64,000 nucleotides of DNA from Domibacillus indicus (lineage in GTDB: Bacteria; Bacillota; Bacilli; Bacillales; Domibacillaceae), in contig NZ_JAMBOO010000006.1 in the NCBI RefSeq assembly GCF_023715895.1, forward strand, positions 1 through 64,000, in the 5' to 3' direction. The stretch's first letter is position 1. Each line of letters begins with the position of its first letter. This document shows, piece by piece, positions 42,296-47,780 of this stretch. The translations under genes and the position numbers were made by a program. A model generated the notes under the pieces. The model did not search any database, was not told the origin of the DNA, and saw nothing but the letters and a program-made list of their open reading frames with translations.

Positions 42296-42393
42296 ATCCG
42301 CCCACCATCATACGTGATTGCTTTTCACTTTTTATTAGCTGTTTCTATTTTAGCATGATTGAGAAGGAAAAAGGGAATTGAAGGCAAACAAAA

Positions 42394-42526
42394 AGCATTC
42401 AGATGTCCTCCAATGACATCTGAATGCTTTGTTTTGTTTTAAAGGGATCAGCTATTCTCCAATAACAGCTGAAAGTAAGTATCTCGTTGCGTCCAGCCGT
42501 TCTCCGATAACCGCTGAACAAGAGAT
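42394..42526 (-). ncRNA. Array of three hairpins with a shared 7-nt loop, 3' of argF
   Basis: Read on the argF strand, three stem-loops follow the stop codon. At 42494-42516 CAGCGGTT and AACGGCTG (one mismatch) enclose ATCGGAG. At 42448-42472 CAGCTGTT and AATAGCTG (one G-U) enclose ATTGGAG. At 42394-42428 a perfect 14-bp stem encloses ATTGGAG and is followed by TTTTTGTTT, an intrinsic terminator. The stems differ while the loops are nearly the same, which suggests selection on the loops. This could be a structured 3' UTR or a small RNA processed from the argF transcript. Opposite-strand reading (loop CTCCAAT) is possible. Function is unknown. Confidence 0.55.
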
Positions 42527-42530
42527 GTGT

Positions 42531-43484
42531 TTATTTTTTCATTAAGCTGTACAAAACTGCTTTTTGAGCATGCATGCGGTTTTCAGCTTGCTGGAACACG
42601 ACAGACGCTTCTCCGTCCATCACGCCGGCAGACACTTCTTCCCCGCGATGCGCTGGCAGGCAATGCATAAACTTGCATTCTGGGTTCGCCTGGGCGAGCA
42701 GTGCTTCGTTCACCTGATACGGCGCAAAAGCTTCCAATCGAAGAGCAGACTCTTCTTCCTGCCCCATACTGGTCCAGACATCCGTGTAAATAAAATCGGC
42801 TCCCTGCACAGCTTCAGCCGGATCTTCTGTAAAGGTAACGACTGCGCCTGTTTGAGCGGCAATTTCCTTTGTTTTTTGAATGACTGTACTGTCTGCTTCG
42901 TACCCTTTCGGTGCTGCTAAAGCAAAGTCCATGCCCATCATTACAGCGCCAATCATTAGAGAGTGAGCAACGTTATTGCCGTCGCCGATATACACCATTT
43001 TGCTGCCTTTAAAGCTTCCTTTAAGCTCATATACCGTCAATAAATCAGCCAGCGCCTGGCATGGGTGGTATAAATCCGTCAGCCCGTTAATAACCGGAAC
43101 CGATGCTGCTTCTGCCAGCTTTTCGATTCGGTCATGGCCGTGCGTACGGATCATAATCCCATCCAGGTATCCTGATAACACTTTACCCGTGTCTTCAATG
43201 GTTTCACCGCGGCCAATTTGCAGCTGGTCTGAGCTTAAAAACATGCCGTTGCCGCCAAGCTGAAGAATGGCTGCTTCAAATGAGACACGTGTTCTAGTGG
43301 AATTTTTCTCGAAAATCATACCGAGAATCTGTCCTTTTAAAGCATCAAAATAAGCTTCTTTTCGTTTTTTCATATCGTCAGCCAGAACGATCAATGCTTC
43401 TACTTCTTCTGCGCTGAAATCGAGAAGTTTCAAGAAATCTTTTCCTTTTAAATCGAGTTCTTTTACTTTTTCTATCGTGATCAT
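42531..43484 (-). CDS. argF: Ornithine carbamoyltransferase
   Basis: ArgF joins ornithine and carbamoyl phosphate to citrulline in arginine synthesis. The 317-residue protein has the carbamoyl-phosphate loop STRTR (62-66), HPCQ (near 140) and the ornithine-site HCLPAHRGEEV (near 272). It has full family length. The ATG at 43484 has GGGGTG six bases upstream; an in-frame GTG three codons earlier lies inside that site. The gene stands alone, without other arg genes. An ARG-box-like sequence overlaps its promoter, and a hairpin array follows its stop codon. Confidence 0.95.
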   Translation of the reverse strand: MITIEKVKELDLKGKDFLKLLDFSAEEVEALIVLADDMKKRKEAYFDALKGQILGMIFEKNSTRTRVSFEAAILQLGGNGMFLSSDQLQIGRGETIEDTGKVLSGYLDGIMIRTHGHDRIEKLAEAASVPVINGLTDLYHPCQALADLLTVYELKGSFKGSKMVYIGDGNNVAHSLMIGAVMMGMDFALAAPKGYEADSTVIQKTKEIAAQTGAVVTFTEDPAEAVQGADFIYTDVWTSMGQEEESALRLEAFAPYQVNEALLAQANPECKFMHCLPAHRGEEVSAGVMDGEASVVFQQAENRMHAQKAVLYSLMKK

Positions 43485-43525
43485 AAAGGTCACCCCGACG
43501 TGCCGTCACCGTTGTTATATTTATA

Positions 43526-45430: not shown

Positions 45431-46501
45431 TTATTGGTAAGGAGCGGCCTGATAAAAAAAGTTTGGTGACAGAATCGTATTATCATAGGTGCGATGGAAA
45501 ATATGAGTGGCAGCAGGAGATACGGGCGGAATGAGCCATGTCCAGTCTCCAGTTGCCCTTCTGCCGGCTGCTTCTTCGTTTTGTTCAAAGATGCGGTGCT
45601 GTCTCGCTGCCGTATGATGATCGACAATGGTAACCCCGGCTTGTTTAAACGAGTGAAGAACGGCAACATTCAGCTCTACAAGAGCCCGGTCTTTCCATAA
45701 AGAAGAAGCATACTGCGTGTCCAGGCCGATCACGTCTGCTACAGCTGGCAGCCGGTTGTACCGGTTTTCATCAGCCAAATTACGCGCACCGATTTCTGTA
45801 CCCATATACCAGCCATTAAACGGCGCAGCTTGGTAGTCGATACCGCCAATCTCAAGCCGCATATCTGAAATGACTGGAACCGCGTACCATTTAAGCTCCA
45901 ATTCTTTAAAAGACAGAATGTCCGGATGGACAAGGTTCACTTCCACCCGGCATTTTTTAGGAACATCCTGCCAGACGGGAGGATTGCTGCCGATTTGGAC
46001 GACCCAGGGCAGCAGATCAAAGTCACTTCCTTTTCCCCGCCAGCCGAGCGACTCACACTTTTCGGTCAGCGTGCGGGAATGTGGATCCCCGGCATGTTCA
46101 TACCCCGCATAGCGAAGCAGCTGATGATTCCAAATTCGAATTTTTTGTTCCTGCTGATCCGGCCGAAAAATCGTAATAGCCGGCCGGATTTTACCGTCAT
46201 TGTGAGCAAAAACAACATGCCGCTCAAGTGCACGAAACACATCCAGCGCTGTTTCGGCAGTTCGTTCATCAAACACATGGAGCGTCTGCCAAAACAGCCG
46301 GCCGATACAGCGGTTGCTGTTCCGCCATGCAAGTTTCGCCCCATACTCCAATTCTTCAAAGGTATGTGTATATGTACCCGACTCTTCTATTTCACGGTAA
46401 ACCTGCTCGAGCCTCGCTTTCGCTTCCTCACCCGGCCGACTTGTTTCCTGATAAAAGTCGATAATAAATTGCTTTGCTTTCTGCCATCGTGTTTTGTTCA
46501 T
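45431..46501 (-). CDS. nos: Nitric oxide synthase oxygenase (bacterial NOS)
   Basis: This heme enzyme oxidises arginine to citrulline and nitric oxide. The 356-residue protein is the oxygenase domain only, as usual in Bacillaceae, and needs an outside flavodoxin-type reductase. The heme ligand is C65 in NRCIGRLFW. The arginine-binding glutamate lies in [14 protein letters not shown], and WTWLIPP near the C-terminus is typical. AGAGGGA precedes the ATG. An extended -10 (TGGTATAAT, reverse strand, 46525-46533) lies upstream. With Hmp and NsrR in the same window the cell both makes and removes nitric oxide. Confidence 0.96.
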
Positions 46502-47580: not shown

Positions 47581-47614
47581 ATTTTTAATTATTCTTGCAA
47601 TTTTATAAACTCAT

Positions 47615-47780
47615 TCTTATCAAGAGAAGCCGAGGGTACTGGCCCGATGACGCTTCAGCAACCAGCCGTACGGTCAGGTGCTAAATCCAGCAGACTGAAA
47701 CGGTCTGGAAGATGAGAAGGAACGGACAACACATACATGTTGAAAAGCCTTCTTGCCATTAAGAAGGCTTTTTTTATTTT
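47615..47780 (+). ncRNA. SAM-I (S-box) riboswitch with terminator
   Basis: The aptamer (47615-47722) shows the S-box signature AGAGAAGCCGAGGGT, then CTGGCCCGATGACGCTTCAG and CAACCAGCC. It closes with GATGAGAAGG, which pairs with the 5' TTCTTATC as helix P1. A terminator hairpin AAAAGCCTTCTT/AAGAAGGCTTTT with seven T residues follows (47743-47776). When S-adenosylmethionine is high the aptamer folds and transcription stops; when low, yitJ and metH are expressed. Confidence 0.97.

Follow-up and report, generated by a model that had tools for sequence, protein, structure and literature searches.

The 64,000-nucleotide stretch of Domibacillus DNA analyzed in this study (the window) raises the question of why a single gene should be followed by three hairpins, one after another, that display practically the same seven-base loop. 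The gene is one that we take to be argF, a name that derives from knowledge of the family and from the first-pass annotation rather than from a family search, and its product is 99% identical to its nearest relative, from Domibacillus sp. PGB-M46. The gene and the hairpins behind it are arranged as follows:

42531..43493, minus strand: argF, ornithine carbamoyltransferase, an open reading frame of 320 amino acids as listed, whose start codon may be an ATG a few codons further in.
42490..42520, minus strand: hairpin A, with the loop ATCGGAG at 42502-42508 and a stem of 12 positions.
42473..42489, minus strand: linker A-B, with TACTT (42477-42481) kept unchanged in all 13 Domibacillus genomes.
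42448..42472, minus strand: hairpin B, with the loop ATTGGAG at 42457-42463 and a stem of 9 pairs.
42431..42447, minus strand: linker B-C, A-rich, opening with GATCC in 12 of 13 genomes and little conserved past it.
42392..42430, minus strand: hairpin C, with the loop ATTGGAG at 42408-42414 and a stem of 16 pairs, then a T-run; the intrinsic terminator of argF.

Read 5′ to 3′ in the argF mRNA, the loops are AUCGGAG, AUUGGAG and AUUGGAG, all of seven nucleotides. Folding and the coordinates bore out the initial observation of three successive, like-looped hairpins 3′ of argF on the minus strand. The fold of that strand was better than those of all 200 shuffled sequences (z = -5.68), and the plus-strand fold was weaker (z = -3.97, 1 of 200 shuffles as good). 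In a search for triples of hairpins with 7-nt loops and at least seven pairs, loops at most one base from the first and a span of at most 160 nt, the argF triple was the only one in the window on both strands, and no triple arose in 60 one-strand shuffles. Pairs of like-looped hairpins numbered five on the minus strand, three of them from the triple itself, and one on the plus strand, compared to a mean of 0.17 and a maximum of 2 in shuffles. The 7-mer ATYGGAG by itself occurs in the window at chance level (14 observed versus 14.65 expected), demonstrating that the hairpin context is what matters.

The last hairpin had also been proposed to double as a terminator, and the properties of hairpin C agree with this: it has a terminator-like score, its G-C-containing stem is followed directly by a T-run downstream of a gene, and the five T's after the stem are invariant in all 13 genomes of the genus alignment. 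No promoter-like site was found on the minus strand between the end of argF and hairpin A. One part of the original description had to be revised, as the stems, which had been called unlike, all share the pattern TTCAG..GT(loop)..A...CTG. An alignment of the three hairpins has 17 of 35 columns invariant and a mean column identity of 77%, and their sequences suggest that a single unit was repeated and has since diverged.

The first-pass annotation had made its proposal hinge in part on conservation of the loops next to argF in related genomes. No loss of conservation was seen: a nucleotide search across the genus recovered the hairpins after the argF stop codon in all 13 Domibacillus genomes, the genome of the window included. 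The distance from the stop codon to the first conserved loop is 18-25 nt in 11 of them, 50 nt in a twelfth (L102) and 131 nt in the last (L101), and the spacing from loop to loop varies among the species (44-46 and 46-50 nt). Loop bases 1, 4, 6 and 7 are invariant across all 39 hairpins of the 13 genomes, and 38 of the 39 have U at base 2. At base 5, 35 loops have G and four have A, whereas base 3 varies (U in 26, A in nine, C in four and G in none).

The extent of this constraint is evident from mean pairwise differences between the genomes. The value for the loops is 0.084 overall (0.103, 0.022 and 0.128 for the loops of hairpins A, B and C, respectively) and that for stems A and B is 0.103, whereas four-fold sites of argF differ by 0.542. 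Stem C reaches 0.206, a value inflated by alignment without gaps in its 3′ arm. The linkers differ by 0.290 (A-B) and 0.453 (B-C), and the flanks by 0.509 upstream of hairpin A and 0.652 downstream of the terminator. Hairpins and loops alike are held far below neutral change, with loop B being the most constant part of the element. As a class, however, the loops are barely more conserved than stems A and B, and the loops of hairpins A and C are not more so. The next gene, a LysR gene, starts 120-210 nt past the loop of hairpin C in 10 of the 13 genomes and more than 1 kb past it in two, and was absent from the stretch examined in the other. This variable distance indicates that the element goes with argF, not with the gene that follows.

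Two species (L101 and L102) have a fourth hairpin between argF and hairpin A. The L101 copy, part of a lengthened 3′ UTR, has the heptaloop AATGGAG and lies about 60 nt 5′ of the hairpin A loop, and the L102 copy has the hexaloop ATGGAG and lies about 30 nt 5′ of that loop. Both loops have A at the start and GGAG at the end, and we read the fourth hairpin, from its sequence, as probable growth of the array by duplication with the loop retained.

Further evidence on the structure was obtained by placing a written-out structure of 25 pairs on the alignment of the 13 species (A3) and comparing it with 500 shuffles. In total, 96.9% of cells were paired, whereas structures slid along the alignment paired only 27-56%. 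The covariation score of 0.168 was attained by none of the 500 shuffles. The other measures were less discriminating: two-sided changes were present in four of the 25 pairs (13 cells), two of these pairs being in hairpin B, but 41 of 500 shuffles had at least as many two-sided pairs and 496 at least as many further pair types, and 16 pairs had no variation at all. The consensus computed by RNAalifold itself had only the inner four pairs of hairpin C and a small covariation term (-1.93). All nine pairs of stem B are intact in the 13 species, and one of the 12 positions of stem A is unpaired in 10 of them. In 12 of the 13 species the computed best fold keeps the three hairpins apart, the exception being L097, in which the similar arms of A and B join into one long hairpin. 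The pair that closes the loop is U-A in hairpins A and B and C-G in hairpin C, and this change of closing pair under a loop that stays the same suggests that the loop is read.

The structure also carries information about the strand. Four positions in the stems have a G-U pair on the argF-sense strand in 6 to 13 of the 13 sequences (UG in 13 of 13 at columns 16-46 and in 12 of 13 at columns 19-43; GU in 6 of 13 at columns 25-37 and in 10 of 13 at columns 71-83). On the opposite strand each of them would be a mismatch of A with C, which suggests that the argF-sense RNA is the functional one. The G-U pairs disfavor, together with the poorer plus-strand fold, the option put forward in the initial reading that loops exposing CTCC on the other strand pair with, and mask, ribosome binding sites.

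As far as searched, the element is confined to one genus and its strong matches to argF. A covariance model (R1) built from the copies of hairpins A and B gave 26 matches at E ≤ 1.1e-8, two per genome in 13 genomes and all at argF, these strong matches being the model's own source sequences. It detected hairpin C weakly, in four genomes. Its best match away from argF in the 13 Domibacillus genomes was weak (E = 0.0098), and without copies elsewhere in the genomes there is no regulon in support of a dedicated protein. The weak matches away from argF include G009:C12:53246 and those above E 0.05; the two that were folded are L140, with a somewhat similar stem from which the GGAG loop is absent, and L141, in which such a loop is absent as well. 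Under stricter filters, a search of 397 genomes of the order found strong matches only in nine Domibacillus genomes. Five genomes from outside Domibacillus had one weak match each (L142 to L146; E = 0.002-0.009), which we do not find convincing, three of them (L143, L144 and L146) being within long open frames. The same search included seven genomes from other genera of the family to which Domibacillus belongs, and these had no matches. Ordinary intrinsic terminators of Bacillales, such as those after argF in B. badius (L016) and B. thermotolerans (L019), share with the element a hairpin and T-run that end the transcript. Read by eye, however, each of these two is a single hairpin with an unrelated loop.

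Other identities for the element fared poorly. A dispersed repeat or mobile element was rejected based on the DNA query finding one place per genome, as the second match in 4 of 13 genomes was the opposite-strand self match of hairpin C at the same place. The search pattern occurs at nine places in the window's own genome, three of which are the argF hairpins, and the other six do not form this hairpin; no exact match to the pattern was found in viral contigs. A small open reading frame is disfavored, as argued from spacing that shifts by single bases and from loop base 3 being part of a stop codon in one frame in L100 rather than from a coding score. None of the Rfam 15 covariance models matched the element at its gathering score, the only two matches in the window being elsewhere. 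The near-matches (Ref1C, mir-3926 and 25 more) were all below their gathering scores and were taken as chance, the best on the argF-sense strand being Ref1C at 27.9 bits against a cut-off of 90. By title, nothing on this element appeared among the listed matches of a search for Domibacillus RNA literature or in one for UTR-derived small RNAs at ornithine carbamoyltransferase, and no literature was found on Domibacillus together with argF.

The explanation we favor, to which we give close to an even chance, is that the array in the argF 3′ UTR offers an RNA-binding protein several docking sites at once, with a lesser share of that estimate falling to the candidate CsrA. Three hairpins, or four in two species, display the near-identical loop A-N-N-G-R-A-G in an array that closes in an intrinsic terminator, and such repeated loops would let a single trans-acting factor, most probably an RNA-binding protein, dock at each of them. 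This protein would recognize the purine-rich GRAG in the 3′ half of the loop, with one mRNA binding several subunits, and once bound it may determine how long the argF mRNA, or a stable fragment from its 3′ end, survives. Alternatively, the array might draw the protein off other RNAs when argF is highly expressed. That the argF mRNA also acts as a protein sponge in this way, as a CsrB-like 3′ UTR array inside a metabolic mRNA of a Firmicute, we consider doubtful; if it did, arginine synthesis would be tied to CsrA with a relaxed loop preference or to a still unknown protein that reads GRAG loops. To our knowledge, conserved 3′ UTR elements with repeated loops have rarely been described in Bacillales. 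If the loops bind CsrA, they would represent a link between arginine synthesis and motility control, and if their partner is a different protein, the array could serve as ready bait for finding it. The element is also compact, making a clean deletion or loop mutation feasible.

CsrA is the leading named candidate for the factor, yet it fails the consensus test. As a special case of the docking array, the GGA loops would bind CsrA dimers, and the argF mRNA would either titrate CsrA, as a Firmicute analogue of CsrB/RsmZ, or be stabilized or degraded by it. We rate this as unlikely. The protein is available, since csrA is encoded in 12 of the 13 genomes, including that of the window, and went undetected in the one that is 77% complete. 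The first-pass annotation stated that each loop exposes GGA, the core recognized by CsrA, and this holds for 35 of the 39 loops and for at least two in every genome, whereas the remaining four have GAA in its place. It had also noted that the bases before GGA depart from the best CsrA consensus, a reservation that extends to the whole genus: all 39 loops are heptaloops (ANNGRAG) with two bases, not one, between the first A and the GGA or GAA. By comparison, the high-affinity target of RsmE described in PMC4005645 is an ANGGAX hexaloop directly on the stem. The only loop of that form at argF is the AUGGAG hexaloop of the fourth hairpin in L102. The same paper reports binding of RsmE to loops of RsmZ that range from 5 to 8 nt, with lower affinity for the deviating ones, and describes RsmZ hairpins with C-G and then U-A at the top of the stem, an order also present in hairpin C. 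Hairpins A and B, however, close with U-A, and CsrA leaves unexplained the invariant last G and the near-invariant U at base 2 of the loops. In its favor, CsrA of B. subtilis helps SR1 to pair with the ahrC mRNA, which encodes an arginine regulator (PMC8501984).

The flagellin leaders of the genus show what its CsrA sites probably look like. Of 49 flagellin-domain matches listed, 16 loci were examined, and five of these (L147, L150, L158, L160 and L161) have a textbook hairpin of CsrA type, CTGTTCAC-ACGGAT-GTGAACAG or a variant of it, immediately upstream of the ribosome binding site, with the hexaloops ACGGAT (three), ACGGAC (one) and AAGGAT (one), all closed by C-G. The stem pattern of that hairpin was absent from the other 11 loci examined. 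The hag leader site has GGA in a hairpin loop in the same genus, with the same protein available, but its hexaloop is closed by C-G and adjoins a ribosome binding site, whereas the argF loops are one base longer, have U-A closure in hairpins A and B, and are located after the gene. One genome (G008) has, besides its usual csrA, two extra adjacent csrA genes near a flagellin gene (contig C31:51551-53216), a second CsrA/flagellin set.

Decoys of the CsrB/RsmZ type generally have multiple GGA hairpins and a 3′ terminator. The argF array resembles CsrB/CsrC and RsmX/Y/Z in this respect, with several hairpins per RNA, a repeated GGA loop (for the RsmZ loops, see PMC4005645) and a terminator at the 3′ end. 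It differs from them in being in the 3′ UTR of an mRNA instead of a free-standing small RNA, in its ANNGRAG heptaloop versus A(N)GGAX, and in having three or four candidate sites only. The initial reading had remarked that, to its knowledge, no such decoy is known in Bacillus; we likewise know of no CsrA RNA sponge in Bacillus, where that role is played by the protein FliW.

A simpler alternative is that the array is plain 3′-end structure, in which a terminator and its duplicated copies shield the argF mRNA from 3′ exonucleases and the loop is kept for good folding. The terminator-like hairpin C, the relatedness of the three hairpins, their predominance as separate hairpins in the computed folds and the near-equal conservation of stems A and B with the loops are all as this alternative would have it. 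Shielding, however, requires stems and not a loop with four bases that never change, and homogenization of the copies within each genome would not keep the loops alike across species whose argF genes have diverged to the extent seen at four-fold sites. We consider this explanation unlikely.

The protein docking array that we prefer must also be weighed against an RNA partner, in which case the array would act as a sponge for a small RNA with C-rich stretches, such as RoxS/RsaE, or be targeted by it, with the GGAG loops pairing with CUCC. RoxS (RF01820) was found in all 13 genomes, whereas FsrA was sought in the same genomes and found in none. RsaE lowers arginine degradation in Staphylococcus. 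Judged by eye, the UUCUCC-C-AU stretch of RoxS complements AU-N-GGAG-AA at every base but the variable one of the loop. B. subtilis has RosA, a G-rich RNA that acts as a RoxS sponge (PMC8216469). RosA and RsaI of S. aureus, sponges of C-rich small RNAs, share G-rich stretches with the array and the presence of RoxS in the organism, but they are stand-alone small RNAs as opposed to an mRNA 3′ UTR, and the argF loops are without GGGG runs and are predicted to pair only weakly with RoxS.

That weakness was apparent in the computed pairings, a short list per species with no shuffled control, in which just four of the 13 species had an entry for a loop pairing with CUCC (or CUUC), with energies of -0.8 to -1.1 kcal/mol after opening costs. 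Loops paired with other stretches of RoxS at -1.0 to -3.6 kcal/mol in several species, and stretches of the loop and stem of hairpin C reached -4.0 in G009 and -2.9 in G007, but in 11 of the 13 species a stretch other than a loop scored best for pairing with RoxS. Moreover, the base that would complete the pairing, a G at loop base 3, never occurs. The RoxS stretch concerned is uniform in 11 genomes (TTTCTCCCATCCCC) and altered in G001 and G008 (TTTCTTCCATCCCC; L174 and L175). In these two genomes RoxS has CUUCC and the loop of hairpin C is AUAGAAG, which could be taken for a matching change. However, GAAG loops are also present with unchanged RoxS in G003 (hairpin C, AUAGAAG) and G004 (hairpin B, AUUGAAG), and there is therefore no clear covariation between loop and RoxS. 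A RoxS sponge, attractive by eye, lacks strong computed pairing at the loops, and we judge it quite improbable.

Less probable still is that the hairpins form a tertiary unit through loop-loop contacts or ligand binding and control termination at hairpin C, since like loops repeated beside a terminator and an invariant TACTT in linker A-B would suit such a unit, as in the paired hairpins of guanidine-II riboswitches, but self-complementarity of the loops is low by eye, the gene past the terminator differs among species and the loop-to-loop spacing is not constant.

Elsewhere in the window, a SAM riboswitch was identified at 47614-47718 on the plus strand (Rfam RF00162, 89.6 bits), and an open reading frame at 45431-46501 on the minus strand resembles, as judged by eye, a bacterial nitric oxide synthase oxygenase.
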